64,000 bases of DNA from a virus (IMGVR_UViG_3300046005_000547:170736-234735); one strand, 5' to 3'; positions 3,863-56,136 are shown, numbered from the stretch's first letter. Program-made: numbers and translations. Notes: generated by a model not told the origin, from the letters alone.

Positions 3863-3881
3863 GTTATATTTCCCCTTTAAA

Positions 3882-3905: not shown

Positions 3906-3945
3906 AAAAAGAAACCCGTTAGAGCATTCAATCTCTAACGGGTTT
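3905..3945 (-). terminator. Rho-independent terminator
   Basis: A perfect 13-bp stem (AAACCCGTTAGAG / CTCTAACGGGTTT) with a T-rich tail on the - strand, just downstream of the zinc-ribbon gene and the nrd operon. Confidence 0.85.
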
Positions 3946-3956
3946 GGTATCACAAT

Positions 3957-4109: not shown

Positions 4110-4139
4110 TTTAATTCCTTTTAATGTGTTATTGTATAT

Positions 4140-4262
4140 TCATTTAATTGTATTTAATATGAAATTATTCATGTCATTAGATAATTCTTCTATCTTTTTG
4201 AATAATAAATTTTTATTTTTAATTTCAAAATCCCAGATTACCAATACATTATAACCAGACAT
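4140..4262 (-). CDS. Short ORF after nrdB, possible nuclease remnant
   Basis: 40 residues, starting inside the last codons of nrdB (GGGGTG before ATG). The stretch GYNVLVIWDFEIKN resembles the last conserved strand of Vsr/DUF723-like phage homing nucleases (GY.V..IWE.D). No upstream catalytic part exists, so this may be the tail left by an endonuclease once inserted next to nrdB. It could also be a chance ORF. Confidence 0.4.
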   Translation of the reverse strand: MSGYNVLVIWDFEIKNKNLLFKKIEELSNDMNNFILNTIK

Positions 4263-5217: not shown

Positions 5218-5224
5218 TTTATAG

Positions 5225-7248: not shown

Positions 7249-7830
7249 TTAGTTGAAAAGATTTGGAGCAACTTCTGTCATTTGACGTTCAATTTCCTGC
7301 GCAACTAATCTGATTTCATATTGAGCTTCTTTTGTGTTGCGCAATTTAATGAAATCCAACCATGCTTGGAAATTACCAACAACATTTAATGAGGTCGGCG
7401 AGAAATTCGGAAGCACCATTCTAGCGTCTTCTTTCTTTGCACCTAATGATAATAATTTATCATATTGTTCATAAGAATGTTCTAATGATTCTTTTAATAC
7501 AATAGATGCTTCTTCAGATGTTTCAAAAAATGGCGGAACTTCTAATTCCAAGAGTTCGGATACATCTGATTTGGTGTAACGTTGACTCTTTTGAAGGAAG
7601 TCAAGATGTTTGGAACGAACCATTTGATGAGAACAGACTCTTGAGATGTCAGAGATTCTGAAGACAGCATGAGCAAAACGTAATACCGCAAGATGACCTT
7701 TTGATGAACAATGTTTGGCACGTTTTACATTTTTATCAGGATCTGATATATCGGCACCATAACATTCTCCTGCTACAATACCTAAGAATTCTTCTGCGTT
7801 TGGTGTAACAAATAACAATTCAACTTTCAT
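7249..7830 (-). CDS. thyX: Flavin-dependent thymidylate synthase
   Basis: 193 residues. Signatures in order: FRISDISRVCSHQMVRSKHLDFLQKSQRY at 57-85 (split: the Q-x-V-R-x-K core and S-x-R-Y), then AR.VLPNFSPTSLNVVGNFQAWLDFIKLR (substrate binding). The ThyX RHRx7S motif appears as RSKx7S (R72 to S82), with His replaced by Ser and Arg by Lys. It makes dTMP from dUMP using FAD, NADPH and methylene-THF. Together with nrdAB it forms a dNTP operon; if thymine is hypermodified in this phage, dTMP supply is relevant. Confidence 0.88.
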   Translation of the reverse strand: MKVELLFVTPNAEEFLGIVAGECYGADISDPDKNVKRAKHCSSKGHLAVLRFAHAVFRISDISRVCSHQMVRSKHLDFLQKSQRYTKSDVSELLELEVPPFFETSEEASIVLKESLEHSYEQYDKLLSLGAKKEDARMVLPNFSPTSLNVVGNFQAWLDFIKLRNTKEAQYEIRLVAQEIERQMTEVAPNLFN

Positions 7831-13645: not shown

Positions 13646-14191
13646 TTATTTATGTATTAAACATTCCCATATTTCAAGAGCTTCCCTATAATGACATTCA
13701 TGGGGTAACATTTTATAGAAAGAATTGTAATCATTATTTTCAACATATTCTCTCATTTTAGAACTGGAATAGGATGACGGTCCAATACCAAATCTTTCAC
13801 CTCTTGATACAATTTCAACAGATTTGAATTCAAAATAATCTCTTGTATTTAAAAACAAATCGAATCGAGTTTTATATTCATCAAATCTATCTTCACCGCA
13901 TACCACTATTACTTTTTCATATTGATTTTGATGTGCGTAATGTAATAGATTGATTGGTTGTTTTACTTTTTTATCATAATCAATCTTAACAAGTCCGTCT
14001 GTCCATTTGTTCATCAACAACGATTTAATCTCATATGGTAAAGGATTTTTGTTATTGTCTTCTGTGTGAGATAAGAACATAGCAGAATCAGCATTGTATT
14101 TCTTAGCCAACTCCTTGATTTTAGAAATCAATAAGAAATGTCCTTTATGTGGTGGATTGCATCTGGCAAATGAACAGACTAATGTTTTCAT
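13646..14191 (-). CDS. NMNAT/cytidylyltransferase-like nucleotidyltransferase
   Basis: 181 residues of the HIGH-type nucleotidyltransferase fold. FARCNPPHKGHFLLI (8-22) is the (T/H)xGH nucleotide-binding loop, VVCGEDRFDEYK the central strand, and SSYSSSKMREYV the C-terminal (I)SSxxxR-like motif. This family includes nicotinamide-nucleotide adenylyltransferase (NadM/NadR-like) and phosphopantetheine or CTP transferases; phage members are often annotated NMNAT-like. Its neighbours are a ligase-like and a polymerase-beta-type nucleotidyltransferase gene. An NAD role would fit the PARP-like and sirtuin genes but is not shown. Confidence 0.7.
   Translation of the reverse strand: MKTLVCSFARCNPPHKGHFLLISKIKELAKKYNADSAMFLSHTEDNNKNPLPYEIKSLLMNKWTDGLVKIDYDKKVKQPINLLHYAHQNQYEKVIVVCGEDRFDEYKTRFDLFLNTRDYFEFKSVEIVSRGERFGIGPSSYSSSKMREYVENNDYNSFYKMLPHECHYREALEIWECLIHK
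13647..13654 (-). promoter_or_regulatory. Possible late promoter (CATAAATA)
   Basis: One-mismatch version of TATAAATA on the - strand, 26 bases before the core-like protein gene, inside the 3' end of the upstream gene. Confidence 0.3.
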
Positions 14192-16096: not shown

Positions 16097-16296
16097 TAGA
16101 TTTTACCTTTACGTTCTTCAAATGCATATGACTGTATTTTATCCACTAAATCTGGTCTACGTTTTTTATAGAATACATCGGTACAACGTTCATCAATCGC
16201 AGAGTAAATTTGTTTTATCACATTAAAAGGATCTTCTCCTTTACGGATATGATTTTTTAATATGATGTTCAATAACCATTTTTCTAATCTATTCAT
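16096..16296 (-). CDS. Small basic helical protein
   Basis: 66 residues, helical and basic (LNIILKNHIRKGEDPFNVIKQ). Overlaps the nucleotidyltransferase gene by one base. Function unknown. Confidence 0.55.
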   Translation of the reverse strand: MNRLEKWLLNIILKNHIRKGEDPFNVIKQIYSAIDERCTDVFYKKRRPDLVDKIQSYAFEERKGKI

Positions 16297-16516
16297 TTTT
16301 AAATACCTGATGGAAGAAACGTTCGTCGGATAATTTGAAACCTAATTCAACGCAATTCAAATATACATCTATATCAGAATCAATGATATTGTCATTGGTG
16401 TTGACATATTTCATGATTGATTTATACACTGATGTTGAACTTCTGCTACCAGAATAAAATCCAGTTAACATCTGTTTGAATTGCTTGGAGTTGATATATT
16501 CAGAAATTGATAACAT
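16289..16516 (-). CDS. Small protein with weak CTS-like N-terminus
   Basis: 75 residues from ATG 16516, chosen because AAAGGAAC precedes it. The start MLSISEYINSKQF resembles the phage's MLSFKEYNELLEA-type peptides, but with Ile for Phe and without an (I/L)xE site. The body is helical and otherwise unknown. Overlaps the next gene by eight bases. Confidence 0.5.
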   Translation of the reverse strand: MLSISEYINSKQFKQMLTGFYSGSRSSTSVYKSIMKYVNTNDNIIDSDIDVYLNCVELGFKLSDERFFHQVFKNE

Positions 16517-16526
16517 TTGAGTTCCT

Positions 16527-16952
16527 TTAAGATTCATGACGTAAAGAGTTTTTCTTTACTTTACCAGTTGATGTTAATGAGACATTCCATAAAATACCAG
16601 TATCAGAATTGATATGGAACCAGACATATTTCTGAGTTTGGTCAACAATTTTGATTTCATCTGATTCCAGTAAATCCGCTTCTTTTTTGATTTGTGTTGT
16701 TAAATCAGAAACGGTATTTTCTACATATAAAATTTTAATCAAAGCTGTTTGGATGTGATTGTCATCAAGGTATTCATAAAACGTATCAGACAATGTATAA
16801 TTTTCTAATTTATTGATGTGATGGAAGATTCTCCATGCTTGTTGGACTCTTGATTGGTCAGAAACCAAAGACAATGGTAATTTGAACTCTGAGATACCAT
16901 GCATTTCAATAGCAGTTTTCAACATTGTTTGATGTTCAGATGTCATTTTCAT
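16527..16952 (-). CDS. Unknown protein, first gene of operon
   Basis: 141 residues. The C-terminal half is beta-rich (KYVWFHINSDTGILWNVSLTSTGKV), the N-terminal half helical. It lies just downstream of a strong phage promoter, with GGAGGAATTAAAAATGAAA at the start (an in-frame ATG three codons in is possible). No family recognised. Confidence 0.6.
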   Translation of the reverse strand: MKMTSEHQTMLKTAIEMHGISEFKLPLSLVSDQSRVQQAWRIFHHINKLENYTLSDTFYEYLDDNHIQTALIKILYVENTVSDLTTQIKKEADLLESDEIKIVDQTQKYVWFHINSDTGILWNVSLTSTGKVKKNSLRHES

Positions 16953-16987
16953 TTTTAATTCCTCCGATATAATTCAACATGAAATCT

Positions 16988-17016
16988 ATTATAATGTTTT
17001 TTAGATTCATCGAAAG
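16988..17016 (-). promoter_or_regulatory. Phage promoter (CTTTCGA-N16-TATAAT)
   Basis: CTTTCGA at 17010-17016 and TATAAT at 16988-16993 on the - strand, exact 16-base spacer, just downstream of a terminator. Drives the 16952-to-10589 gene run. Confidence 0.8.
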
Positions 17017-17029
17017 ACTTTTCTTTATC

Positions 17030-17068
17030 TAAAAAGAAACCCGATAGAGATTTTCGCTCTATCGGGTT
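17030..17068 (-). terminator. Rho-independent terminator
   Basis: Stem AAACCCGATAGAG / CTCTATCGGGTTT with CTTTTT tail on the - strand, after the 17074 gene. Confidence 0.85.
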
Positions 17069-17073
17069 TGGTG

Positions 17074-18540
17074 TCATGAAATTTTGTAGAACACAGAACT
17101 AAAATGATTTTGTTTCTTAGAGGATAAACATAACATCTTTAATGTTTCTCTCATGTTAGTTTGTTCTAAACAATATAAGAAATGTAATAACACAAGACAT
17201 CTTTTAATTGTATATTGATTATCAGGTTCTTCAGTTTCCAACGTTTGAATGTCAATGAATACAAATTTATCGTTCTTTACATAATCAACAAATCCTGAAT
17301 ACTTTGAATCAATCGAATCCAATGTTTTCAATACATTAGATTCAGGAACTAATTGATAATCAACGTAATCCTTGAATTCAGGAATAATGAAATCAGTCAA
17401 TTTGTTAATCAATGCCTTAGAACTGCTACCGTCCCAATTAGATTTGTTGAAATCGGCAGAACCTTGACAATATACATTCAGGTCGTTACTCTTACCTCTT
17501 GGTGCCAATCTGAACATGTATTCGTAATCTTTACCAAATTCTTCCATGATACAATACATATTGATGTAAGATAACATATCATTGAATTTGAAAATCTTTA
17601 ATGGTCTATCATACCATAAATTATCAACATAATTGTAATCAACTTCGACTTTCTCTACCTTAGCAAATTCATTCAATGTTGATTCAGAAACTAATCCTGT
17701 TGTTGGAGCAATGACTTTCTTCAGGGAGAAACCAATCAATTGTCTTGTGTCAAACAGATGTTTAATGGTATCATTCAGGTCATATACATCTGCTCGTCCT
17801 GTTTCAATTCTGTATAGAACTTCCGAGAGGGTATCAATGACATTTTGTTTATGATGTTTGTTGATTGCCCATACATCAGATGGATTCCAATTATCTTTCG
17901 AGTCTGGTAGATATTTGGATTGAGTCATTGTAGTCAGAATTGGTAATTTATTCTTATCGGAATCTCTATAGAATTCATAAGAATGAATATCAATCACTCT
18001 ACTGACAGCATTATATGTTTCTTTGAATGATAAGAACCATGTGTCGTCAAATTCAAACCCGATTGTCTTATTGATTTGAGATTTGGTAGGATATTCAGGA
18101 AATGAGTTTAAAATGTAAGTGATAGCTTCTTCATGTTGATATGAACTTGGTCTATTATTTACAGTTTCATTACCATCTTCATCAACCACTCTTTTGAATC
18201 CACCTCCAGATTTATAGAATGTAAATGATACTCCACCGGTATGGAATTTAATGGCATTCTTGTCTTCTGAGATATGTTCAATACCAATATGCGAGATAGC
18301 ATCATACATTCGTTTGATGGATTGAAAATCATCTACAATGGAGAAATGGATGTTGTTTGTGATTTTATTATCGATTATCTTTAGATGCAATTTAGATGCA
18401 TAAGGTTGTAATGCATTCAACAATGTATTTATATGAGAATTGTTTTGAAATTGTTGACGTATTACTTCGAACGCAGATTTACCTAATCTATAATGGGTTG
18501 CTTCCTGTATTGTGTTGTTATACTGTTTAAAAGATAGCAT
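17074..18540 (-). CDS. Putative head-internal protein with CTS-like N-terminus
   Basis: 488 residues, start with AAGGAATATAA. The N-terminus MLSFKQYNNTIQEATHYR has the CTS-like form and an IQE-Ala cleavage-like site at residues 11-14. The body has WNPSDVWAINKHHKQN and RQLIGFSLKKV, a W.P.D.W ... LIG.SLKK pattern I have seen in large uncharacterised phage virion proteins. No enzyme motif is evident. It stands alone between two terminators, consistent with separately timed expression. Packaging and injection are inferred from the N-terminus. Confidence 0.5.
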   Translation of the reverse strand: MLSFKQYNNTIQEATHYRLGKSAFEVIRQQFQNNSHINTLLNALQPYASKLHLKIIDNKITNNIHFSIVDDFQSIKRMYDAISHIGIEHISEDKNAIKFHTGGVSFTFYKSGGGFKRVVDEDGNETVNNRPSSYQHEEAITYILNSFPEYPTKSQINKTIGFEFDDTWFLSFKETYNAVSRVIDIHSYEFYRDSDKNKLPILTTMTQSKYLPDSKDNWNPSDVWAINKHHKQNVIDTLSEVLYRIETGRADVYDLNDTIKHLFDTRQLIGFSLKKVIAPTTGLVSESTLNEFAKVEKVEVDYNYVDNLWYDRPLKIFKFNDMLSYINMYCIMEEFGKDYEYMFRLAPRGKSNDLNVYCQGSADFNKSNWDGSSSKALINKLTDFIIPEFKDYVDYQLVPESNVLKTLDSIDSKYSGFVDYVKNDKFVFIDIQTLETEEPDNQYTIKRCLVLLHFLYCLEQTNMRETLKMLCLSSKKQNHFSSVFYKIS

Positions 18541-19396: not shown

Positions 19397-19942
19397 TTAT
19401 TTTTCCGAAAGAATTGAATTGATAAAATCTAAGATTTTAGATTGTTCTTCTTTTGTCTCATTTTTGAATTCTGTGATATATTCAGCTAATGAAAAATTGT
19501 TTTGGATATTTGAGATTTTCGTTTCTCTACCGTTCAAGAATTGGTCAGATTGATTAGATCCTCTATCCGCATATCGTTGTTTCAACAAATCTTGTTTACA
19601 TTTTAAGACAACGATATGAAATTCAATATCAGGTTGTTCTGACATCAATTCATATAGATTCATATTTGTTAATCTATCACCTTCCATCAAAATGTTTGAT
19701 TCTGTGACCTTGAACCATTTAACAAATTCTGGTTGAACAGCCAGACTCAACTTATCTGTTCCAGGAAACGTCTCACCTTCATCATATTTCCCTAAGATAT
19801 ACAAATCTAAATCTTTAGAGTATTCAGAATCCACTAATTTGGCAGGTTGTGTTCTTTCCCAAGTGGACGATTTCATGAATTCTCTGAACAGAGTAGATTT
19901 ACCAGTTCCTGGAACCCCACATACAGCAATAACTTTTCTCAT
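19397..19942 (-). CDS. P-loop nucleotide/nucleoside kinase
   Basis: 181 residues from ATG 19942, sharing one base with the upstream stop. Walker A is GVPGTGKSTLF (about 8-18). A LID-like region LLKQRYADRGSNQS (about 125-138) follows a hydrophobic strand ending in FHIVVLKC. This is the layout of deoxynucleotide kinases and of phage 5-hydroxymethyl-pyrimidine kinases. Coupling to the 19942-20859 gene, which looks like a base-hypermodification protein, favours a role in modifying DNA bases or precursors. T4-like dNMP kinase is the alternative. Confidence 0.65.
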   Translation of the reverse strand: MRKVIAVCGVPGTGKSTLFREFMKSSTWERTQPAKLVDSEYSKDLDLYILGKYDEGETFPGTDKLSLAVQPEFVKWFKVTESNILMEGDRLTNMNLYELMSEQPDIEFHIVVLKCKQDLLKQRYADRGSNQSDQFLNGRETKISNIQNNFSLAEYITEFKNETKEEQSKILDFINSILSEK

Positions 19943-20859
19943 TATATTTTCTCGCAATCTAATTCTGTTATATTCATGTCAATCAATTTTAATCTATTAC
20001 TCAATAGATTATCAACTGAACCTTTCAATTTCTCTGCTATCAGAGAATCATTATTATACTCTAATGCAGCTCTTAATTTAAGAACTTTATCACCTTTGTT
20101 TAATGTCCCTTTAAATGTCTTCCTATAATCGCAAAAGAATGTCTCAATTTCAGTGACGCCAATACATCTATTTGGATTATGAGGACATTTATATTCTTTG
20201 AAGAATTCCAATTCCGATAAGAACAATTCATCTAACAGAGGATCTTGTCTAATCTGTTCCGATGAACGTTTGGAGATAGACGATCCTGTTCTAACCAATT
20301 CAAATCCCGATAATGAACCCTTTGGTATAGTCTTCTTGAAATCATCCGACCAGACTGGTTTGTAATTCATGTCAAATATAGATTCAACCATATCAGCAAC
20401 TTTGAACGCAAAGTATTCACCAAACGTAGGAATCATCTTAGCGGATTCAAGTGATGTCTTCCAATCAACAGTATGTTCTAATACATTATCAATCCATTGT
20501 TCAGGAGTTTTAATCCTCATTTTATCTATCTGAGTGTTATAACTTCTTGATTTAACATTTGTTTCTCTTGAAGCTACATCAATTCTGTCTTTACCAACTT
20601 TTGCTTCCTTGAACAACATTCTCACATAATCATAGTATTCATCGTCTGGTATAGAACATAATTTAATGGAATGTTTTAAATCATATACCATTAGATTAGA
20701 GAAGATTAACCGTTTCTTCTCAGTGTCCGATAATTCAGAATTTCTAATCATTGTATAGATGGGATCCACTTCACCCAGAGCAATATGTTGAAATGAAAAC
20801 TTCCTGAATTCATCTAATAATATATAGACATCATCAAATAGATTATTCATTGGATTCAC
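19942..20859 (-). CDS. Putative thymine hypermodification helical protein (aGPT-PPlase2-like)
   Basis: 305 residues, mainly helical. [51 protein letters not shown] and [17 protein letters not shown] follow the order I associate with the alpha-glutamyl/putrescinyl-thymine pyrophosphorylase clade 2 proteins. Those are DNA-glycosylase-like helical proteins found in phages with hypermodified thymine. The adjacent P-loop kinase and the two TET/JBP enzymes in this window fit. Sequence similarity was judged by eye, so the assignment is tentative; a profile search would settle it. Confidence 0.45.
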
Positions 20860-23446: not shown

Positions 23447-24172
23447 ATGAAAGCATTATCTATTGGTATCAACAAATACAACGTAGCACCTCTGAGAGGT
23501 TGTATAACAGATTCTAATGATTTAACAACAGAATTGATTGAAAGGGGATTTGATGTATCGAGGTTGTTAGACGAACAAGCAACCAAATCAAACATTATTG
23601 AAAAGATGCATCAATTATTGTCTGAATCCAAAACAAAATTCATTTTACATTATTCTGGACACGGTTCACAGATCCCATGTTCAAATGGTTCGGAAGAAGA
23701 TGGATTGACTGAAATCCTATGTCCATTCGATTTAATCAATTCAGACGGTTCATGGACATCCAATTATATCACAGATGATGAAATACAACAATTGTTCTCA
23801 GAGTTTCCTGATATTCATATAGAAGTTATTCTTGATTGTTGCCATTCAGGAACCGCAACTAGAGATATTAAACCAACATCCATTACTCCTAGATTCATAC
23901 AATCTCCTGTTATAAATTCATCTAAGAATATTCCATTCGGAGTATCTAATGATAATGTAATCTGTTGGAGCGGATGCACCGATAATCAGACGGCAGCTGA
24001 CTCGTTCATCGACGGGAAATACAGGGGAGCATTTACCACAGCATTTTTGACTGCTTCTGGTAACAGAGAAATAATGTTTAAGAATATTACGGATTACATG
24101 ATTAAGAATGGATATGAACAACGACCAGTCTTAACTTGTACAGATAAACAAAGGACAGAATCAATGTTCTAA
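23447..24172 (+). CDS. Metacaspase/caspase-like cysteine protease
   Basis: 241 residues, start with AAGGAGAGAAACA. It carries the p20 core of clan CD: ALSIGINKY at the N-terminus, LHYSGHGSQ with catalytic His72, the acidic specificity segment SEEDGLTEILCPFD, and VILDCCHSGT with catalytic Cys132. A p10-like part follows (FGVSNDNVICWSGCTDNQTAAD, split; GAFTTAFL). Complete for a single-domain orthocaspase. It is the only rightward gene in a long leftward region and has its own terminator, suggesting independent acquisition and control. Metacaspases cleave after Arg/Lys, caspases after Asp; which applies is not clear. Possible roles: disabling host defence or regulating lysis. Confidence 0.88.
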   Translation: MKALSIGINKYNVAPLRGCITDSNDLTTELIERGFDVSRLLDEQATKSNIIEKMHQLLSESKTKFILHYSGHGSQIPCSNGSEEDGLTEILCPFDLINSDGSWTSNYITDDEIQQLFSEFPDIHIEVILDCCHSGTATRDIKPTSITPRFIQSPVINSSKNIPFGVSNDNVICWSGCTDNQTAADSFIDGKYRGAFTTAFLTASGNREIMFKNITDYMIKNGYEQRPVLTCTDKQRTESMF

Positions 24173-27431: not shown

Positions 27432-28637
27432 CTATAACTCGTACAAAGAAATATTTTTATCTTCGTTACCCGTAAATTTTAACATATTTCTAGGATTATA
27501 TTTTGTTTCGAATTCTATTCTTTCTTTTTCGTCAAACCATTCATTATAATGGGAAACGCACAATTTTCCTCCAATTGATTTTTCTAAATTAAACCCCATT
27601 ATTTCTCTGGAGTTTGGTTCGTCTTTGTAATAAGTGTGGGTGTCAAAATTCAATCCTTTATCATATAATGCACTAGAATATTCTTTTTTTGTTTTTGCGA
27701 ATTCTTTCGCAAATTTACCTTTCGTATTCATAGCGATTACGAAAGGTTTAAAATTTATTTCACCTTCCCAAGAATAATATAATTTATCGTATAATTCTGC
27801 GATTTTATTGGTATTTACGTACAATTGGTAGAATAAAGGATTATGTTTTATCGTTTTTCTTAATTGACATAAACAAGTTTCTAAATTATAAATATCGATA
27901 TGGATTATAGAATTATCGTTACAATAATGATATATTTCTTTAACCTTTTCTTCGAAAAATAATAATCTATTTATGTCCGTATTTTTTGTTTTTTTAATTA
28001 TTTGCCATTCTTCTTTATTTAAAACCCAACAAAGAGCATTCCATTGCGACCAACTATTTTGGTTTTCCAACTGTAATTCCGGTATATCTATATCATAATC
28101 GAAAAACTCATACATCATTTGTTTCGTTAACCAAACCCCCATTCTACCGTATCCATGTAAACTTTGTAATTCTTCGGTTAAATTATTGAAATTAGTTATA
28201 GGATTTCCAGTTTTGGTTAATTTTTCAAAATGTTCGATTATGTCAATGTTTTCGTATCGTTCTTTTAAATCTTTAAATAATCCGACAAAATTCCTATAAC
28301 ATTTCAAAGTATCAGTCGCGTAGAAACATCTTTTCGAATTATTTTCAACGAATTCGTTTATTTCTTCTACAGAAGTTTCTAAAAAATTAGGAAACTTCTG
28401 TAGAATTATCATTGGCCAATGACTCCGATAAGATTGACCAAAAATTAAGCAATAAAAAAGTTTTTGTTTATCTGTTAAATTCATTTCGGAAGCGATAACT
28501 TTACCATGGTGCCAATGATCTATATCTCCTTCTAACATTAAAACGTTTGTATACCTTCTAAACAATTCCATTCTATTTTCAGGTAATCTCCAATCTTTAT
28601 AATTCGATTCTTCTAATTCATAATCAAATAAACTCAT
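27432..28637 (-). CDS. Putative DNA-thymine hypermodification protein (aGPT-PPlase3-like)
   Basis: 401 residues, helical. The order of conserved pieces, R.ELFRRYTNVLMLEGDIDHW, then LTDKQKLFYCLIFGQSYRSHW and ILQKFPNFLE, followed by KRCFYATDTLKCYRN and LHGYGRMGVWLTKQMMYEFF, fits the clade 3 alpha-glutamyl/putrescinyl-thymine pyrophosphorylase-like proteins of hypermodifying phages (glycosylase-like helical fold). It is directly upstream in position of two TET/JBP dioxygenases. The assignment is from remembered patterns; HMM search against that family is the test. Confidence 0.45.
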   Translation of the reverse strand: MSLFDYELEESNYKDWRLPENRMELFRRYTNVLMLEGDIDHWHHGKVIASEMNLTDKQKLFYCLIFGQSYRSHWPMIILQKFPNFLETSVEEINEFVENNSKRCFYATDTLKCYRNFVGLFKDLKERYENIDIIEHFEKLTKTGNPITNFNNLTEELQSLHGYGRMGVWLTKQMMYEFFDYDIDIPELQLENQNSWSQWNALCWVLNKEEWQIIKKTKNTDINRLLFFEEKVKEIYHYCNDNSIIHIDIYNLETCLCQLRKTIKHNPLFYQLYVNTNKIAELYDKLYYSWEGEINFKPFVIAMNTKGKFAKEFAKTKKEYSSALYDKGLNFDTHTYYKDEPNSREIMGFNLEKSIGGKLCVSHYNEWFDEKERIEFETKYNPRNMLKFTGNEDKNISLYEL

Positions 28638-28725
28638 TATTTTTTTCCTTTATCTTATTTGGTTTAATCTTCATTTAGAAATCTATTTAATAATATATTT
28701 GCGTTCGCTGTTATATCTCCAGTAA

Positions 28726-28764
28726 AACGAAAAATGGAGAAACCCGTTAAGGTCTCTCCAATCT
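28726..28764 (-). terminator. Rho-independent terminator
   Basis: Stem TGGAGAGACC / GGTTTCTCCA with a TTTTT tail on the - strand after the first TET/JBP gene. Confidence 0.75.
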
Positions 28765-28767
28765 TAT

Positions 28768-30138
28768 TTAAAAGAATTCATCCAATGATGTAGATTCAAA
28801 TTCATCTTTAAGGTCTTGATGATATTCATCAATCCATTGTTGCCCTTTCTCATGTTCTAATAAGAAATCGTACCATTCTTTCGATGTCCACATTTTTTGG
28901 AAAACGCCGTTCCAAAGTGGGCGCCATAATGGATGCGTCTCATCTTTACGTCTGGTGTCAACAAACAAACGTCTATAATCTTCATATTCCTTTGAACCCA
29001 GACCCAACATGTCTTCTCTGAAATAAGCAATAACAGAAATACGTTCACCACCTTCTTCGGTTTGAATGAATTCAGTGTTTCCATGTAAAATTTCATGATT
29101 ATTGATTAAACATAAATCTCTTGGTCTAATGTTAACTGCAATTCTATATGCAGGAAACACTAGATAACAACCTTCATAATTCTCATTTTTAGATAACACC
29201 AATAGATTTGAGAACCCTGATGTCAAATCACCGGCATCAAAATGATAATGCGTACGAAACGATTTATTTACAGTCACTGTTGTAAATACGGTTTCGGGAA
29301 TCAAAAATGCTGGATCCATTTTGTCGGCAGCTGCTCTCTGGTTACCCCATCTCCAAGGTAATAATTCCTTGAATCCTCCATTCAAACGTTTGAAAAATGG
29401 AAATGATAATTTGAATTTATCAAAATGATGGTCGGTGTATCCGGTTGCTCTACCATAAGGGATTCGTGGGTATCTTGAATACCATCCAGCAATACCAGAA
29501 TATGCTGGAGCAGCATAAACTGTATTAGACACCCAATTTTTCATTACAAATAATGCTCGTTCTTTGGCATCTTCTTGGTCCATGGATTCTAATTCTGAAA
29601 CCAATTCATCAAATTTAAAATTGTCTGGAGTTTTATTAGTCAACCATACAGAAGTTCTTAAACCGTTGTTAGATGAATTATCTTGTTGTTTGAGTTGTTC
29701 TAATGGATCCGAACCGTCTAATGTACTTGTTCTATCAATAAAGTATTCTAAAATATCATGTTGACGTTTAGTGAATCGTTCGCGTCGTTCATTATCTGTT
29801 ATTTCTTCTAACATACCAGCAGCAAGTCCGCGATTGTTAGATAATACAGCAGCATCTCTTAATCCGCCGTACGCTCCATCGTGTTCTTCAATAGTGAAAA
29901 ATCCTTTACGATATTTAAATGCGATACGCCGTTCATCAGAACCTTTATCGCATGAATTACATTCAGATACACAAGTTGCTTTGGTTGATAAATCGCATAA
30001 TGGTTCCATGTATACATCAACGTCTTCGTCGATATCTCCCCCAGGTCCAATTAAAATATCATAATGAGATCTATCTGCACCATGACCCAATAGGTGGTCT
30101 ACGTTATGTTTTTCTTTTGCTACAATAATTCTTGCCAT
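28768..30138 (-). CDS. TET/JBP-like 2-oxoglutarate/Fe(II) dioxygenase, copy 1
   Basis: 456 residues. A conserved N-terminal region has CDLSTKATCVSECNSCDKG, RIAFKYRKGFFT and LRDAAVLSNNRGLAAG. The double-stranded beta-helix core shows iron ligands H299-F-D301 (in HYHFDAGDL) and distal H352 (in EILHGN), with R366 for 2-oxoglutarate (GERISVIAYF). In phages this family oxidises the 5-methyl group of thymine (or 5-methylcytosine), giving 5-hydroxymethyluracil as the entry point of hypermodification. Paralogue at 32634-33995. Substrate not proven. Confidence 0.8.
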   Translation of the reverse strand: MARIIVAKEKHNVDHLLGHGADRSHYDILIGPGGDIDEDVDVYMEPLCDLSTKATCVSECNSCDKGSDERRIAFKYRKGFFTIEEHDGAYGGLRDAAVLSNNRGLAAGMLEEITDNERRERFTKRQHDILEYFIDRTSTLDGSDPLEQLKQQDNSSNNGLRTSVWLTNKTPDNFKFDELVSELESMDQEDAKERALFVMKNWVSNTVYAAPAYSGIAGWYSRYPRIPYGRATGYTDHHFDKFKLSFPFFKRLNGGFKELLPWRWGNQRAAADKMDPAFLIPETVFTTVTVNKSFRTHYHFDAGDLTSGFSNLLVLSKNENYEGCYLVFPAYRIAVNIRPRDLCLINNHEILHGNTEFIQTEEGGERISVIAYFREDMLGLGSKEYEDYRRLFVDTRRKDETHPLWRPLWNGVFQKMWTSKEWYDFLLEHEKGQQWIDEYHQDLKDEFESTSLDEFF

Positions 30139-30164
30139 ATGTTTGCCCTTTTGTTTAAAATTAC

Positions 30165-30194
30165 ATTATACTCTATAATGTTTAAAATAGAAAT
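30165..30194 (-). promoter_or_regulatory. Possible promoter for the first TET/JBP gene
   Basis: TATAAT at 30165-30170 and ATTTCTA at 30188-30194 on the - strand, 17-base spacer; weak -35 box. Confidence 0.4.
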
Positions 30195-30228
30195 CTTCTT
30201 AATACATTACATATAATACACAAATCTA

Positions 30229-30263
30229 ATGGAGTTCAGAATAATATCTGAACTCCATGTTTA
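30229..30263 (-). terminator. Hairpin after the 30319 gene
   Basis: A stem ATGGAGTTCAGAT / ATCTGAACTCCAT; the following T-run is weak, so termination strength is uncertain. Confidence 0.55.
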
Positions 30264-30318
30264 TCACCAACTAATTGTCCATGTATAATTTACAGTGGAA
30301 TGTCATTTTCGATATTCA

Positions 30319-31047
30319 TTATTGTTTCCGTTTAATCAAAGTTTGTTTCCAATCAATTTCACCAGACTGGATAGCGTCATACAATTTATCGTCTAAAGAT
30401 ATTGATTCGTATGAATTATCATTGATACCTTCACCCCACATTTCTGTTTCATCTCTGTCTTCCATAATAGGTTTAAATCTGTAGAACATTCCCTCTGGTA
30501 TTAAATTGATACCAACCAAATCAATAGAAAAATACTGCATATCTTCGGAACAATTCTTATTCCATACGTTACCAGTAATGAAATCATTGTATGTGATGAC
30601 ATCTTTATTTACATTAGTTCTGAAAATAATAGTTGAATAATTATATAATTCGTTCCCAATATCAAAGAATGTTTTAATATACTCGTATTGACCGTTTCTA
30701 CCATTATCCCAATATCTTTCTTTGCGCGTTGGTGCCGTTTCAAATTCAAACAATTCGCCGTCTTCATCCATGGCAGCACAAACTGCCCAATCGTTTTTGA
30801 ATTCATAATTTAACAATCCAGGATAAATTGGTTTATCGATTGTTCCGTTGTAATGATTTACAAAATCTCTAATATCAGTATCAGAATATCCATTATCATT
30901 CAAACAATTATGAATTTCTTCAAATAATTCAATACGTTCTAATTCTTCTTTAATCAAATTTACAGGAACATTAACTTGTTGATTGGTTGATGTATCTTTC
31001 ATGTTTAAAATGTAATCCGATTGTTTGGTTGTGTTAATAATAATCAT
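30319..31047 (-). CDS. Unknown protein in the hypermodification block
   Basis: 242 residues with AGGAGAACCAA before ATG. Acidic, mixed alpha/beta, with DWAVCAAMDEDGELFEFE and GYSDTDIRDFVNHY; no motif I recognise. Lies between the two TET/JBP genes, so a link to base modification is only positional. Confidence 0.6.
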   Translation of the reverse strand: MIIINTTKQSDYILNMKDTSTNQQVNVPVNLIKEELERIELFEEIHNCLNDNGYSDTDIRDFVNHYNGTIDKPIYPGLLNYEFKNDWAVCAAMDEDGELFEFETAPTRKERYWDNGRNGQYEYIKTFFDIGNELYNYSTIIFRTNVNKDVITYNDFITGNVWNKNCSEDMQYFSIDLVGINLIPEGMFYRFKPIMEDRDETEMWGEGINDNSYESISLDDKLYDAIQSGEIDWKQTLIKRKQ

Positions 31048-31059
31048 TTGGTTCTCCTG

Positions 31060-31596
31060 TTATTTTGTTGGGTCTAAATTCATTGATGCTTTACTTCTTT
31101 TGATGGCTTGTTCTCTGGTTGGATACGCTAATCCATTTTCAATATAAAACAATGATGAATGTTCATACTTCAACGTCGTATAAAAATTAGGATTCATGTT
31201 TGCTATATAGAAAATAGACCCTTCTCTAAATCCATCTCTTTGACCGTCTTCAACAAACCAACCATTTACGTTTATTTTTGGTAATTCTTTAATTCTTCTG
31301 TATTTTACTGTTCCTGATCGATGGTCATGAAAATCGGGGTGTTCTGTACAATTAACGTATCCAAATTGTGTTAATTTTTGCCATTTTTCATATGGTGTTG
31401 AATTATGTTTCCAATCTTCTGAATATGCATCAATCATAATGTTAATATCTCTACAATCGGAGAATTCCGTTACAATACAATTATCTCGATACATTCTATT
31501 ACATTTCCCGCATTTAAATTCATTTTGGTATCTAGAATCAACGCCCTTTTTAGATATAATACCATAACAATCTTCACAATGTAATTCATCTTGCAT
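31060..31596 (-). CDS. Zinc-knuckle protein with phage-specific C-terminal domain
   Basis: 178 residues. Two CxxC pairs (CEDC at 6-9 and CGKC about 29-32) form a zinc ribbon. The C-terminal part, NVNGWFVEDGQRDGFREGSIFYI then GLAYPTREQAIKRSKASM, matches the domain in 41065-41556 (NGFEVEDG...FYY...AR.RAKSM.G.DP). This GF-VEDG...A-domain is frequent in phage hypothetical proteins. Function unknown. Confidence 0.6.
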   Translation of the reverse strand: MQDELHCEDCYGIISKKGVDSRYQNEFKCGKCNRMYRDNCIVTEFSDCRDINIMIDAYSEDWKHNSTPYEKWQKLTQFGYVNCTEHPDFHDHRSGTVKYRRIKELPKINVNGWFVEDGQRDGFREGSIFYIANMNPNFYTTLKYEHSSLFYIENGLAYPTREQAIKRSKASMNLDPTK

Positions 31597-31626
31597 TTCT
31601 TATACTCTTAAAATTAACATATTTCT

Positions 31627-31655
31627 ATTATACTTTATAAAACGAAATAAGAAAG
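31627..31655 (-). promoter_or_regulatory. Phage promoter (CTTTCTT-N16-TATAAT)
   Basis: CTTTCTT at 31649-31655 and TATAAT at 31627-31632 on the - strand with 16-base spacer. Confidence 0.65.
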
Positions 31656-31659
31656 AATC

Positions 31660-32577
31660 TTATGTAATAAAAGTATGGTTTGTTGATTTAATATGTCTAG
31701 TTACATGGGATAGACTGTTTGTTTTAAATGAACAATCTTTACAATAATGCATTACATCAGGCGTTCTATTTGGATTTCTATCAGGATTTTGTTTACAATT
31801 ATCATTATGATATTTTGTTATAATCGTTTTATTTTCAGATTCAAATCCACAAACATTACAAAAATGTTTCTTTACGTTTCTATCTGGATTCTGTTTACAA
31901 TTATCTCCATGGTATCTAACATAATTACCTTTATTAGAATACACAAATTCTTCAGAACAATGAATACAAACAAATTTCGGTTCAATCGTGTCTAAGAATG
32001 ATTTGGTTTCCAACATTTTCTTGTTCATTCTATCTCGTTCTTCAGATGACATATTAACATGCCATTCTGTAACAAGTTCAGATCTTAAATCTTTTATGTA
32101 ACTTTGACTGATTCTAATTTTCTCACTAATTGCATTTTGTTCTTCTTGCGTTCGTTTGGAAATAGTGTCAGCAATTTGATTCTTAATCCTTAATTTTTCT
32201 TCTTCTGATTTGGATTTTAAATTTTTAGAATGTTCTATATTTTTGAAAATAGACAATTCAGAATATTGTCTACTTGTGATTCCTTTTTGGTATACTCTAC
32301 ACAATTTATGTAAAGTAGGAAACGATTTCTTTAATATCCAATGGGCAACATAATGTTGACGTTTTGTTAAAATTATTCTATTCCAAGGAAATAATGTAAA
32401 ACATTCAAATTCAGGAAACATATCACTACCTCTAGGTAAAATATGATGTTTGTCTGTATGTTTCATCTTAGGGTGATTCTTTCCTTGTAAAGATGTAATA
32501 AATTTTATGTATCTATTCAGATAATGTATATTGTGCGGTTTGGTGTGTAAATGTTCTATAAATGTATTGTTGTTCAT
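31660..32577 (-). CDS. HNH homing endonuclease with three zinc knuckles
   Basis: 305 residues. The HNH core is KHHILPRGSDMF...TLFPWNRIILTKRQHYVAHWILKK (split), the pattern of free-standing phage HNH homing endonucleases. The C-terminus has three Cys/His knuckles: CIHC...HGDNCKQNPDRN, CNVC...HNDNCKQNPDRN and CKDC...H...TNH, presumably DNA binding. It lies between a hypothetical gene and the second TET/JBP gene, so it probably inserted between the duplicated dioxygenase units. The knuckles resemble those of the 44570 endonuclease. Confidence 0.8.
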   Translation of the reverse strand: MNNNTFIEHLHTKPHNIHYLNRYIKFITSLQGKNHPKMKHTDKHHILPRGSDMFPEFECFTLFPWNRIILTKRQHYVAHWILKKSFPTLHKLCRVYQKGITSRQYSELSIFKNIEHSKNLKSKSEEEKLRIKNQIADTISKRTQEEQNAISEKIRISQSYIKDLRSELVTEWHVNMSSEERDRMNKKMLETKSFLDTIEPKFVCIHCSEEFVYSNKGNYVRYHGDNCKQNPDRNVKKHFCNVCGFESENKTIITKYHNDNCKQNPDRNPNRTPDVMHYCKDCSFKTNSLSHVTRHIKSTNHTFIT

Positions 32578-32589
32578 GTTTAGTAATAA

Positions 32590-32625
32590 TTGAAAAATGG
32601 AGATAGAATTGACCTATCTCCATGT
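32590..32625 (-). terminator. Rho-independent terminator
   Basis: Stem ATGGAGATAG / CTATCTCCAT with TTTTT on the - strand, after the second TET/JBP gene. Confidence 0.8.
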
Positions 32626-32633
32626 GTATATTA

Positions 32634-33995
32634 TTATCCCATTAGATCTTCTAATGAAACTGATTCGAATTTGTCTTTTAAATCTTGATGATATTCATCT
32701 AACCATTGTTGTCCTTTATCGTGAATCAATAAGAAATCATACCATTCTTTTGAGTCAAACATATGAGGATAAACCCCATTAAAGAATTCATGCCATTTTG
32801 GATTTGTTTTATCATGTTTAGAATTTTCAACAAATTGTTTTCTATGGTCTTCATATTCTTTAGAACCACATTCTAACAATCCATGTCTAAAATATGAGAT
32901 GACGCTTACTCTATGTGCATCTGGTTCATTTTTGATAATTTTTGTATTACCATGCATGATTTTACTATTATCGACAATTAACAAATCTCCTGGTCTTACA
33001 TTAACAGCAATTCTATATTCAGGGAATACTAGATACCCACCAGAGTAATTATCATTGTTAGATAATACCAACAAATTAGAAATAGCATCCTGTAAATTGG
33101 CTGCATCGAAGTGGCAACCCGTAACCCACGTGTTATTTACAGTTAGAGTGGTGAACACTGTTTCGGGAATCAAAAATGCTGGATCGATTTTATCTGTGGC
33201 ATCTTTTTGTAATTGCCATCTTCTTGGCATTAAATCTCTGAATCCTCGATTTAATGACTGGATAAATGGGTAACATTTTTTAAATTTATCAAAATGATGG
33301 TCTGTATAAGCAGTAGCTCTACCATAAGGTTGACGAGGATATCTACTCCACCACCCACAAACTCCACTCATGGCAGGAACCGCCATTGACGTTCCAGATA
33401 CATGTTTCTTATGGATTCGGATAGCTTCTGCTTGAGCATCTTCTCTACTCATCTTTGATAATGAATCCACCCATGATTCAAAATCAAACATTTCCTCACC
33501 ATACAGAACCCAGACGACACCCTTTGTTACAGTGGTATCATCTTTACGTTTCCGTAATTCAGATAATGTATCGTCATCATATAATGAATCTAACGGATTC
33601 ATGAAGTAATCAAAGATTGAACGTTGGTAATCAGATACATAATTACGTTTGGCATCTTTGTTGTTCGATTTATCGCGTTCTGTATATTTACCAGCAGCAG
33701 TTCCTCTATTGTTTGAAATAGTGGCAGCATCTTTCAATCCTTCTAATGCCATGTCTTGTTCTTCTTTTGTGAAGAAGTTCTTACGAAACTTGAACGCAAC
33801 TCTGAATTCATCAATACCTTTATCGCATGAATGACATTCAGATACACAATCAAGTTTTGTTGATAGGTCACAGACTGGTGGAGTATAAACGTCCGCATCT
33901 GATTCAATTAAAACATCATAAAATGAATCATCAATGAATGTTCCCAGTAAATGTTCACAATCAAGTTTTTCTTTTGCTACAATAATTTGAACCAT
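32634..33995 (-). CDS. TET/JBP-like 2-oxoglutarate/Fe(II) dioxygenase, copy 2
   Basis: 453 residues, paralogous along its length to 28768-30138. It has CDLSTKLDCVSECHSCDKG, LKDAATISNNRGTAAG, the iron motif GCHFDAANL, distal His in KIMHGN and the 2-OG Arg in AHRVSVISYF. All catalytic residues are kept, so both copies look active, perhaps on different substrates or steps (for example two oxidation levels or thymine versus cytosine). Start preceded by AAGAGCAGGATAACAAAT. Confidence 0.8.
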   Translation of the reverse strand: MVQIIVAKEKLDCEHLLGTFIDDSFYDVLIESDADVYTPPVCDLSTKLDCVSECHSCDKGIDEFRVAFKFRKNFFTKEEQDMALEGLKDAATISNNRGTAAGKYTERDKSNNKDAKRNYVSDYQRSIFDYFMNPLDSLYDDDTLSELRKRKDDTTVTKGVVWVLYGEEMFDFESWVDSLSKMSREDAQAEAIRIHKKHVSGTSMAVPAMSGVCGWWSRYPRQPYGRATAYTDHHFDKFKKCYPFIQSLNRGFRDLMPRRWQLQKDATDKIDPAFLIPETVFTTLTVNNTWVTGCHFDAANLQDAISNLLVLSNNDNYSGGYLVFPEYRIAVNVRPGDLLIVDNSKIMHGNTKIIKNEPDAHRVSVISYFRHGLLECGSKEYEDHRKQFVENSKHDKTNPKWHEFFNGVYPHMFDSKEWYDFLLIHDKGQQWLDEYHQDLKDKFESVSLEDLMG

Positions 33996-34022: not shown

Positions 34023-34400
34023 TTAAAGAATTTTGAATTTAGACATTTGAATGTTTCTTAGTTGTTGAACATTTTGATTTACAACTACATCAACTGTTGA
34101 ATATCTATCGGAAGTAGAAACTAATTGTTCTGTTTCGGATAATTTAGAATTCATTGAATATAATAATTCAGTTTCTTCATATTTGTTCCAAATCTTGGAT
34201 ACAACATTTTCATTTAATGTTGCTTCAATACAATAACCAGTTACATTACATCTGAATCTTAAATTTGGATCCGTAATAGATTTGTTGAAGTATCCACAAT
34301 TTTTACATTGTTCTTTAATGGATAAATGTTCAACGTATCTCATACAGGTTGGAGCCACTGAATTAGTGGCTGTGATAATTTTATATCTAAATGATTTCAT
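34023..34400 (-). CDS. Small Cys-containing unknown protein
   Basis: 125 residues with a knuckle-like C-K-N-C-G-Y pattern and a later C..TGYC. Overlaps the helicase stop by one base, so it is coupled to helicase translation. Function unknown. Confidence 0.55.
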   Translation of the reverse strand: MKSFRYKIITATNSVAPTCMRYVEHLSIKEQCKNCGYFNKSITDPNLRFRCNVTGYCIEATLNENVVSKIWNKYEETELLYSMNSKLSETEQLVSTSDRYSTVDVVVNQNVQQLRNIQMSKFKIL

Positions 34401-35800
34401 TAGAATACAAAGTCCGATGTTGATACTTGTTTTGTTTTAGTTAAAGATGGCATTGGATTATCCTTAAATGGAGTGTAATCTGTTGAACCCTTGCCAGAGA
34501 TATTTGCTTGAGCAGAATCTTCTAAATCAAACAATCGCATTTTAGAACGGTCAATACCAACAGTGAATCTTCTATGATTATCCAAAGAATTGTAACGATT
34601 CTTCAATTGTTTAATCATTAGTTGTTGCATACCTTCTAGTTCTTCAGTTGAAATGAGACCTAAGAATAAATCACAAGTTGCTGGTAACCCAAACGATTCA
34701 CTGGTATTGGTTAAATCCATATCCGTTGAATTTGCGGCGTCCCTCGTACTCTGAGTAGCTGAGATAATAGGAACTTCATATTCAACAGCCAATCCTCTGA
34801 ATTCCTCGGCAATTGATTTGACATAAGAATATGAATTAACACTGTTACCGAATTTTAATTTCTGAGAAGCGCAGATGTTAAGATAATCGATGATAATCAT
34901 ATCTGGTTTGAAATTCTTTTTTAATTTCAATTCTTCAAGTAACGCTCTGAAATGACCAACATGAGCAGAACTGGTTGGGTATTCTTTAATAATCAATTTA
35001 CCAATAGATTTATCCATTAATCGTTTGATTCTGGTTTCGAACAAGGATTTATCCATTGTTTCTAATTCAGCAATGTTGACATTCAATAGATTAGCGTCGA
35101 TACGTTCGGCAATCTTTTCTTCTGACATCTCAGCTGTAATATACAGGACGTTCTTACCTTGCGCAATAGTTGAAGCAGCAATATGACACATAACAAGAGA
35201 TTTACCAACGCCTGTGGATGCCAATAATACATTTAACGTCTTCTTACTTAGACCACCCTTTGTAATGTTATTCAATAATTCAATATCAAATGGAATCTTA
35301 TCTTCTTTTAGATGATACAAATCAAAACGAGATTCCCAATCATCAATATATGAATGTCCAATATTGGTATCAAACGATACAGCCAATGCGTCCGATAAAA
35401 TGCTTGGTAATGCGTCTTTTGTTACATTCTGAACTTTACCATCAATCACCTTAATAGAATGCATAATGGCATTATATAAAGCTCTGTCTTGACAATACCG
35501 TTCGGTTTCCTGGATTAACCATTCAATGTTGATATTCTTATCAGAATATGAATTGACTAGATTTTCAATATCCTTTAATTCATCTTCCTTAACGTCCGTT
35601 CTGTTAGAGGATTCAATTTGTATAATTTGTTTTGTTGGTAGAGTATTGTATTTGGAAAAATACGTATCTATTTGTTGTAGGATAATCTGTTCAGAACGTT
35701 CTTGGAAATAATCTAATTTTAAAAATGGCAAGACCTTCCGACAATACTCATCTGAATGGATTAAGTTTTCTAGGATTACATTTTCTATTCTATCGCTCAT
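34400..35800 (-). CDS. Replicative DNA helicase, T4 gp41/DnaB-like
   Basis: 466 residues. The RecA-like core has Walker A STGVGKSL (194-201), then ITAEMSEEKIAERI, Walker B MIIIDYLN (301-308), VPIISATQSTRDA (motif with sensor Gln) and the DnaB end RFTVGIDRSKMRLFD. The N-terminal helical domain (1-110) is the oligomerisation part. It unwinds the fork 5'-3' as a hexamer with the gp61-like primase. Confidence 0.9.
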   Translation of the reverse strand: MSDRIENVILENLIHSDEYCRKVLPFLKLDYFQERSEQIILQQIDTYFSKYNTLPTKQIIQIESSNRTDVKEDELKDIENLVNSYSDKNINIEWLIQETERYCQDRALYNAIMHSIKVIDGKVQNVTKDALPSILSDALAVSFDTNIGHSYIDDWESRFDLYHLKEDKIPFDIELLNNITKGGLSKKTLNVLLASTGVGKSLVMCHIAASTIAQGKNVLYITAEMSEEKIAERIDANLLNVNIAELETMDKSLFETRIKRLMDKSIGKLIIKEYPTSSAHVGHFRALLEELKLKKNFKPDMIIIDYLNICASQKLKFGNSVNSYSYVKSIAEEFRGLAVEYEVPIISATQSTRDAANSTDMDLTNTSESFGLPATCDLFLGLISTEELEGMQQLMIKQLKNRYNSLDNHRRFTVGIDRSKMRLFDLEDSAQANISGKGSTDYTPFKDNPMPSLTKTKQVSTSDFVF

Positions 35801-38590: not shown

Positions 38591-39280
38591 TTATTTCTCC
38601 ATCTTCTTGAAAATGGTATCACAAATCTTAGGAACTTGTTCTCCTGCCTTACCTTCAAAGAATTCAAATTCAGCCCACATTGTTGATGGTTTAACTAAAT
38701 CCACCAATAAAATTTTACAGTCTGAACCGACGGCATCCAATAATGACGCAGCAGGATAAACTGATAACGACGTTCCAACCACAACCATGTAATCATAATG
38801 TTCTTCTTTAATCATTGCATATGCAGTTTCAAACATCGGAACATCTTCATAGAAGAATACAATATGTGGTCTTAATTGATTACCTTGTTCAGATAATGTT
38901 CCCACAAACATATCATCAGTCCAATCATATGTAAATCCTGTTACGGTATCTCTTGCTTTAAGTAATTCGCCATGTAGATGGATAACTTTGCTGGAACCTG
39001 CTCGTTCATGTAAATTATCAACATTGGTTGTGATGACTGTTACATCATGATATTGTTCCAATTCCTTGATAGCAATATGTGCTGCATTAGGTTCAACAGT
39101 CTGAACTTCTTTGCGTCTCATGTTATAAAATTCATGAACCAATTCAGGAGTTTCGGCTAATGCCTTTGGTGTACAAACATCTTCAATGTTGTAGTTGTTC
39201 CATAATCCATCTGAATTTCTAAATGTACTCAGACCAGATTCAGCTGATATACCAGCACCCGTTAAAAATAATATCTTCAT
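38591..39280 (-). CDS. Sirtuin (Sir2 family, class III type) NAD-dependent deacylase
   Basis: 229 residues. NAD-binding motifs GAGISAESGLSTFR (8-21), TTNVDN (84-89), catalytic HLHGEL (His103), LRPHIVFFYE and VVVGTSLSVYPAASL are all present. FYNMRR carries the Y52-x-x-R55 pair typical of class III enzymes (CobB, SIRT5) that remove succinyl or malonyl groups. The four zinc-binding Cys expected between HGEL and LRPHIV are missing. It may reverse host lysine acylation, act with the ADP-ribosyltransferase in NAD chemistry, or counter NAD-based immunity; none is shown. Confidence 0.9.
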   Translation of the reverse strand: MKILFLTGAGISAESGLSTFRNSDGLWNNYNIEDVCTPKALAETPELVHEFYNMRRKEVQTVEPNAAHIAIKELEQYHDVTVITTNVDNLHERAGSSKVIHLHGELLKARDTVTGFTYDWTDDMFVGTLSEQGNQLRPHIVFFYEDVPMFETAYAMIKEEHYDYMVVVGTSLSVYPAASLLDAVGSDCKILLVDLVKPSTMWAEFEFFEGKAGEQVPKICDTIFKKMEK

Positions 39281-55429: not shown

Positions 55430-55462
55430 AAAGTTCATTGGATTCTTCCAACTTGAACTCTA
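55430..55462 (-). repeat. Duplicated 5' leader, copy 2
   Basis: Near-identical to 27370-27396. It overlaps the last ~12 codons of the lipase gene, so those codons are part of a shared regulatory block. Confidence 0.7.
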
Positions 55463-56136
55463 TTATAATGATTTTTATTTACATCGAAAGAACTTTCTAA
55501 AGATTTAATATAAAAATTAATGTCGTGTGAATTTTTAATAAATTTACCAGTCAATCTATCTTTGATTATGTCCATTATATTACAGTCTTGAACGATATTC
55601 CCTTTGGAATTTATATACATTAAAATCCCATGATGTCTATAAGGATAAATCGGAGTCATGGGAGCATAATCATACGCAGCAGCAAATCTATAATGTGTTG
55701 ATTTAACGTTATCCACAAATTCTTTATTACCAATTCTAGGGGATCCAAAAGAATATATGACACAATCATCTCTGTCGATTAAATGTGAAAAGATAACTGC
55801 GATTGCACCACCCAATGAATGTCCAGTCAAATATAATTTTTTATTTTTGTCTAATCTATCACCCAATGATTCCAATAACAATTCAGAATATCTCAAGAAT
55901 CCACTTTGAATCCCTTTTTTCAATGTAAATGATATATCAGCAATCCAATCTTCTGGTTCGTCAGTGCCTCTGAATACAATTATTTGTTCAGTTTCTGATT
56001 CCAATAAGAATGCTTGCGCAAAACAATTTGAAAATAATTCAACAGAATACCCTTGTACAGTTATTGAATCGTTGTATGATTGTTTAGATAGATTAGCGAA
56101 GAATAATGCTTCATATAGAATCATAAATCTGTCCAT
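55435..56136 (-). CDS. Class 3 lipase-like alpha/beta hydrolase
   Basis: 233 residues. QIIVFRGTDEPEDWIADISF (oxyanion region), KLYLTGHSLGGAIAVIFSHL with nucleophile Ser107, VIYSFGSPRIGNKEF and a YDYAPMTPIYPYRHHG segment (catalytic Asp near 155, His near 165) follow fungal/bacterial lipase_3 proteins. A hydrophobic N-terminus (MILYEALFFANLS) may target the membrane. It could hydrolyse host lipids, changing the membrane or helping lysis. The C-terminal ~12 residues are translated from promoter sequence, so the tail may be a recent extension. Confidence 0.85.
   Translation of the reverse strand: MDRFMILYEALFFANLSKQSYNDSITVQGYSVELFSNCFAQAFLLESETEQIIVFRGTDEPEDWIADISFTLKKGIQSGFLRYSELLLESLGDRLDKNKKLYLTGHSLGGAIAVIFSHLIDRDDCVIYSFGSPRIGNKEFVDNVKSTHYRFAAAYDYAPMTPIYPYRHHGILMYINSKGNIVQDCNIMDIIKDRLTGKFIKNSHDINFYIKSLESSFDVNKNHYNRVQVGRIQ
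55463..55491 (-). promoter_or_regulatory. Phage promoter (CTTTCGA-N16-TATAAT) inside lipase 3' end
   Basis: CTTTCGA at 55485-55491 and TATAAT at 55463-55468 on the - strand, 16-base spacer, coding for the C-terminal residues of the lipase in the same strand. Confidence 0.8.

Follow-up and report, generated by a model that had tools for sequence, protein, structure and literature searches.

Predicted post-replicative DNA hypermodification genes with a duplicated TET/JBP dioxygenase in a T4-like phage

The phage genome analyzed here carries genes for what is probably a post-replicative DNA hypermodification pathway, one that would oxidize, phosphorylate and aminoacylate a base already in the phage DNA and that includes a specialized second dioxygenase. 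The window, a stretch of 64,000 nucleotides (G000:C1:170736-234735), lies within a virus record of 234,735 bp (234.7 kb). The major capsid protein of this record shares 61% identity with its Synechococcus phage S-WAM1 counterpart, indicating that the phage is a T4-like myovirus. Every open reading frame of the gene block singled out in an earlier note on this DNA is open and has the coordinates given below, and a short patch of a TET gene was the only match of the block to phage genomes at the DNA level. The features of the window that matter for the argument, all on the minus strand, are:

7249-7830 (-): ThyX-type thymidylate synthase with an altered RHR motif (PF02511, 144 bits)
19397-19957 (-): P-loop kinase of a TET/ADDT-associated family, a predicted hydroxymethyl-pyrimidine DNA kinase (PF18751, 29.8 bits)
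19942-20859 (-): ADDT-B, second amino acid:DNA transferase (ADDT) homolog, of the PhiW-14 gp109/PaMx11 type (PDB 8z2m, E 1.4e-5; PF18724, 24.2 bits, sub-cut-off)
27432-28637 (-): ADDT-A, amino acid:DNA transferase homolog, 401 aa (PF18724, 37.1 bits; predicted model compared with 8z2m)
28768-30138 (-): TETa, TET/JBP dioxygenase, 456 aa, with the family-typical Asp304 (PF12851, 73.4 bits)
30319-31047 (-): uncharacterized protein between the TET genes (no family in Pfam or PHROGs; G002 counterpart 37% over 94 aa)
31060-31596 (-): uncharacterized protein between the TET genes (phrog_18768 only)
31660-32577 (-): probable homing endonuclease, inserted between both TET genes (phrog_655, E 1.4e-16)
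32634-33995 (-): TETb, TET/JBP dioxygenase, 453 aa, in the slot adjoining the DnaB-type helicase gene (PF12851, 57.8 bits)
34400-35800 (-): DnaB-type replicative helicase, the conserved upstream neighbor of the TET slot (read from sequence)

We infer the reactions, target bases, amino acid attachment and protection from nucleases as follows. A TET/JBP dioxygenase would hydroxylate the 5-methyl group of a pyrimidine already present in phage DNA, TETa most likely converting thymine to 5-hydroxymethyluracil; the P-loop kinase would phosphorylate the new hydroxymethyl group; and an ADDT would put an amino acid in place of the phosphate, leaving a bulky base unreadable to host nucleases. The dioxygenase gene would have been duplicated in place, TETa retaining the ancestral residues and the ADDT neighbor. 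TETb would have retained the catalytic iron site, altered the residues around it and then come under strong purifying selection. It most likely would act on a different substrate, the best candidate being 5-methylcytosine (5mC) produced by the C5-methylase that the phage itself encodes.

Both dioxygenases exceeded the PF12851 (Tet_JBP) cut-off of 34.9 bits, TETa with 73.4 and TETb with 57.8 bits. The iron ligands HxD...H and the 2OG-binding arginine (H299, D301, H352 and R366 in TETa) are invariant in 114 of 114 sequences, both window TETs included. The earlier note had described two complete TET/JBP-like enzymes, and by these measures both are. An AlphaFold model of TETb (mean pLDDT 88) found its best solved match by fold comparison in human TET2-DNA (Z 19.6), spanning the whole catalytic region, followed by NgTET1 (Z 18.4), CMD1 and CcTet; members of the AlkB group scored Z 13.8 and below. 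The predicted fold of TETb is nearest to TET2 and NgTET1 among the 2OG oxygenases. Full-length TET relatives with 44-45% identity are encoded by Caulobacter phage Cr30 and Stenotrophomonas phage DLP_6, where they carry the annotation 'SNF2 DNA repair protein', and IMG/VR holds at least 575 relatives. Queries made from two-sequence alignments picked N-terminal patterns and retrieved few relatives; wider alignments performed better.

Phylogenetic analysis placed TETa and TETb as sisters (support 96/89), adjoining the single-TET group of contigs L018, L158 and L159, and a wider tree gave the same pair. Separate acquisition of two unrelated TETs is ruled out by this pairing. Two TETs were found in this genome (G000), its near-identical fragment G001 and a related 249 kb record (G002) only, among 33 TET records counted with the profile. 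The earlier description of the combination as known in principle, with two dioxygenases as its unusual element, agrees with this result: the two are paralogs, and double-TET genomes were seen only in this lineage. TETb occupies the slot beside the DnaB-type helicase, and the same junction with a TET is present in L018, L158, L159, L160 and G002. The TETb branch has a stem of 0.54 and tips of ~0.10, and the TETa branch a stem of 0.26 and tips of ~0.35. Between the G000 and G002 orthologs, dN/dS was 0.12 for TETb and 0.22 for TETa, indicating purifying selection on both.

TETb has altered 10 of the 102 positions that are at least 98% conserved in the rest of the family. Seven of these 10 adjoin catalytic motifs (Fisher 0.002, with positions taken as independent and motif flanks standing in for the pocket). 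Of 114 sequences, 111 have D at the Asp304 position; the exceptions are the two TETb sequences, which alone have N, and C48C1, which has S. When aligned with TET2, this position falls in HRDLHN, three residues after the iron-binding Asp, on what we take to be Asn1387, a residue that contacts 5mC and whose NgTET1 counterpart is presumably Asp234. The TETb-specific substitutions are fixed in both lineages (G000 and G002), and TETb has its iron ligands and Arg366 intact and retains the Cys-rich N-terminal region as well as most conserved positions. Judged from the sequences, this pattern looks like a changed substrate or sequence context rather than decay. Outside this lineage, the TET2-N1387 position is N in Zemanar, Tonitrus and S-CBWM1, which lack a C5-methylase, and D in Melnitz, which has one. 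Since the residue shows no correspondence with the presence of a methylase in other phages, we rejected the idea that this position alone discriminates thymine from cytosine. To our knowledge, the basis on which TET/JBP enzymes choose between thymine and 5mC is not settled; a natural TETa/TETb pair with about 10 near-invariant differences, mostly beside catalytic motifs, would make this choice directly testable.

The genes for the subsequent steps are also recognizable. ADDT-A scored 37.1 bits against the PF18724 (ADDT) cut-off of 26.2, and ADDT-B, at 24.2 bits, fell just under it. Comparison of the ADDT-A sequence and profile with solved structures gave no credible relative, and fold comparison alone found one: the AlphaFold model (pLDDT 86) best matched PaMx11 gp46/PUGT (8z2m; Z 15.5, 249 residues, 13% identity), the next matches being 8-oxoguanine DNA glycosylases (Z 9.3). 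By its title, 8z2m is a 5-phosphomethyl-dU glycinyltransferase from Pseudomonas phage PaMx11, and the match favors a transferase over a 'pyrophosphorylase'. The protein at 27432 had been likened to aGPT-PPlase3. It does belong with the family matched by its profile; the label finds no counterpart, the protein being ADDT only in Pfam and phrog_3271 in PHROGs, with nothing in NCBIfam and no separate 'aGPT-PPlase3' listed. ADDT-B is related to 8z2m by sequence (E 1.4e-5), matches phrog_6364 (E 4e-22), is 22% identical to PhiW-14 gp109, and shows 61% over 70 aa with the ADDT that directly follows TET-ADDT in L158. ADDT-B and the P-loop kinase form a pair 7 kb further along from ADDT-A on the minus strand. 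The kinase, likewise claimed earlier, scored 29.8 bits against the PF18751 (Ploopntkinase3) cut-off of 27.

This gene set is conserved beyond the present lineage. ADDT and kinase both lie downstream on the same strand in 37 of 46 distinct TET loci, counting those with at least 6 kb downstream. Among 22 IMG/VR TET records, 13 contain both kinase and ADDT and 9 contain neither (Fisher 2e-6). The TET-ADDT-kinase trio also occurs in Mycobacterium phage Zemanar and Rhodococcus phage Tonitrus, and in the latter it has been described as a thymidine hypermodification system (PMC11955845). The core pathway is a known and common kind among phages. The biochemistry of the 5hmU DNA kinase is established (PMC6449724, PMC7653180) and, together with the title of 8z2m, suggests that the most likely order is oxidation, phosphorylation and then exchange of the phosphate for an amino acid. 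The PF18751 kinase family is defined mainly by association. Since Melnitz-3 has a C5-methylase, a TET and such a kinase in one gene run, the presence of the kinase does not prove that uracil is the target. Taken together, profiles, folds and conserved gene order back the earlier proposal that oxidation is followed by further base decoration in the phage DNA.

The decorating genes appear to be exchanged. The TETs of L018/L160, L159 and L158 are 88-100% identical and share the helicase junction, and the ADDTs that accompany them are of three types, mutually just 21-24% identical. The L159 ADDT is 40% identical to ADDT-A of the window, and the L158 ADDT 66% identical to that of G002. Between G000 and G002, ADDT-A is only 20% identical, against 64% for TETa. 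Accessory genes vary as well, with a glutamine amidotransferase in L158 and (by sequence) G002, and a glycosyltransferase and an inositol-1-phosphate synthase in L018. These comparisons suggest that the oxidation step is kept while the final decoration is swapped between phages, a pattern to be expected if hosts respond to particular adducts by evolving nucleases against them; such cassettes would be a source of new DNA-decorating enzymes. In L158, ADDT-A and ADDT-B types are adjacent on a contig with a single visible TET, and an exclusive tie of ADDT-B to TETb and the methylase was rejected for this reason.

The C5-cytosine methylase gene (G000:C1:144956-146011; PF00145, 154 bits), with intact catalytic motifs, is found beyond the window, at a distance of 25 kb. 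It is separated from the TETs by ~53 kb in G000 and by 85 kb in G002, and its product is 87% identical between the two genomes. Among 37 records of this TET clade, it occurs only in the two double-TET genomes. None was found in single-TET relatives, including the complete or long records of Cr30, DLP_6 and C48C1 and several 90-200 kb contigs; IMG/VR records may be fragments, and gene absence is weak evidence in the short ones. Because the double-TET state rests on one lineage, the link to the methylase may go back to one event and carries no statistical weight. A family-wide link between this methylase and TET was rejected, as 28 of the 29 phage records with the methylase family lack a TET and only 1 has one. 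The methylase is not clustered with TET and glycosyltransferase genes, and a scan of genes in the window cassette revealed no glycosyltransferase.

Other genome contents bear on the target base. A PF00303 synthase/hydroxymethylase is absent from 9 of 10 TET records tested, the exception being Cr30, whose protein is a true ThyA by score. PhiW-14 shows the converse arrangement, a PF00303 synthase and an ADDT with no TET. ThyX is encoded in 10 of 16 TET records tested; its presence in this phage had been claimed earlier, and the gene lies at 7249-7830. The lack of C5-methylase in single-TET relatives, the rarity of PF00303, the presence of ThyX and the arrangement in PhiW-14 favor thymine as the ancestral TET substrate. 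On this sequence evidence, thymine is the likely substrate of TETa and no more than a candidate for TETb. The thymine target proposed earlier is supported indirectly, by genome context, for the ancestral-type TET and weakened for this phage, which encodes a C5-methylase and has a TETb changed around the active site. By analogy with Melnitz-3, which combines C5-methylase, TET and kinase, a cytosine route is possible in principle.

The pathway that we propose can be extended to two bases: an ancestral thymine TET would have been duplicated, one copy would have been re-tuned to 5mC with a TET2-like Asn where the base is contacted, a C5-methylase would have been acquired to supply its substrate, and the kinase and ADDTs would decorate both modified pyrimidines. 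If TETb does use 5mC, this phage would exemplify hypermodification of both pyrimidines. We put this extension forward tentatively and consider it somewhat doubtful, because the methylase family is widespread without TET and the combination is confined to one lineage. An account that keeps to thymine has a fair claim to attention, while falling short of probable. In that account, both TETs act on thymine, or one of them performs a second oxidation or works in a different sequence context; the C5-methylase gene would serve anti-restriction and be unrelated to the pathway. It draws support from the 28 of 29 phage records in which this methylase family stands without a TET, from the adjacency of ADDT-B and ADDT-A in L158 with its single visible TET, and from the single-TET relatives, which appear to be of the thymine type by genome context. 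However, it sits poorly with the clustering of the TETb substitutions beside catalytic motifs and their fixation in both lineages, and with the restriction of the methylase, within this TET clade, to double-TET genomes.

It is unlikely that the system is dedicated to cytosine, a reading in which both TETs would oxidize 5mC produced by the C5-methylase, as in the published phage TETs, and 5hmC would then be decorated by the kinase and the ADDTs. Over 30 records in this TET clade show no C5-methylase, many of them with the same ADDT-kinase cassette, and the solved ADDT relative acts on 5-phosphomethyl-dU, although a C5-methylase is present in the genome, Melnitz has C5-methylase, TET and kinase together, and phage systems of C5-methylase, TET and glycosyltransferase are known (Burke et al. 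2021, as cited in PMC12730594). We consider it quite improbable that TETb no longer modifies DNA bases and acts instead on RNA, protein or an amino-acid adduct. In favor of this reading, several otherwise invariant residues beside the catalytic motifs of TETb have changed; against it, the match to TET2-DNA by fold extends over the entire catalytic region, and TETb retains most conserved positions together with its Cys-rich N-terminal region.

Compared with known systems, the new elements here are the TET paralog pair, the C5-methylase alongside a double TET, and near-identical TETs with unrelated downstream ADDTs. The actinophage cassettes (Zemanar gp2-gp4; Tonitrus gp3, gp6 and gp7) likewise encode a TET/JBP enzyme, an ADDT and a kinase of the same family in order, the Tonitrus ADDT going by the name aGPT-PPlase2 (PMC11955845). 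They have a single TET and a single ADDT, are preceded by a ParB-like gene and lack a C5-methylase, whereas the phage studied here has two TETs, two ADDT types at two places and a C5-methylase. PaMx11 gp46/PUGT and Delftia phage PhiW-14 gp109 resemble ADDT-A in fold and ADDT-B in sequence, as detailed above. In PhiW-14, however, a phage synthase supplies the hydroxymethyl group ahead of replication, and there is no TET; here a TET would make it in the DNA. Phage TET cytosine hypermodification, as outlined in PMC12730594 with reference to Burke et al. 2021, consists of a C5-methylase, a TET and glycosyltransferases. It shares with our phage the presence of a C5-methylase and a TET in one genome, and differs in that here ADDTs would decorate, the methylase does not adjoin the TETs, and the scanned cassette genes include no glycosyltransferase. 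Cr30 and DLP_6 have full-length TET relatives, and Cr30 also an ADDT and the kinase; unlike our phage, each has a single TET and no C5-methylase, and Cr30 adds an inositol-1-phosphate synthase.

Two of the comparison genomes contain further genes worth recording. In Cr30 (L001), the gene at 16238-17164, directly after the ADDT, gave a weak, sub-cut-off match to TAGT (TET-associated glycosyltransferase; 19.7 bits). In Methylophilales phage Melnitz-3 (L152), positions 1451-5531 hold consecutive genes for a C5-methylase, a TET, an unknown 427-aa protein and an ADDT-associated kinase; the 427-aa protein has no Pfam match and stands in place of an ADDT.

The ThyX at 7249-7830 is 95% identical in G002 (dN/dS 0.05) and has the motif RSK, compared with the canonical RHR in five TET-phage relatives; it may supply dTMP, or may have been repurposed or use another substrate. 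On the opposite strand, 23447-24172 (+) encodes a caspase-family peptidase (Peptidase_C14, 94 bits; 60% identical in G002), which is unusual in a phage. Reading by eye identified NMN-adenylyltransferase-like (13646-14191), sirtuin-like (38591-39280) and PARP-like (59630-62431) genes and, outside the window, nicotinamide phosphoribosyltransferase-like (G000:C1:3178-4656) and ADP-ribosylglycohydrolase-like (121362-122159) genes, possibly an NAD+ salvage or ADP-ribosylation set. Also by eye, the gene at 55435-56136 (-) was read as encoding a protein that resembles class-3 lipases and contains a GHSLGG motif; its G002 counterpart is 72% identical. Outside the window, a short N6/N4 DNA methylase of 194 aa (PF01555) is encoded at G000:C1:25029-25613 (-).
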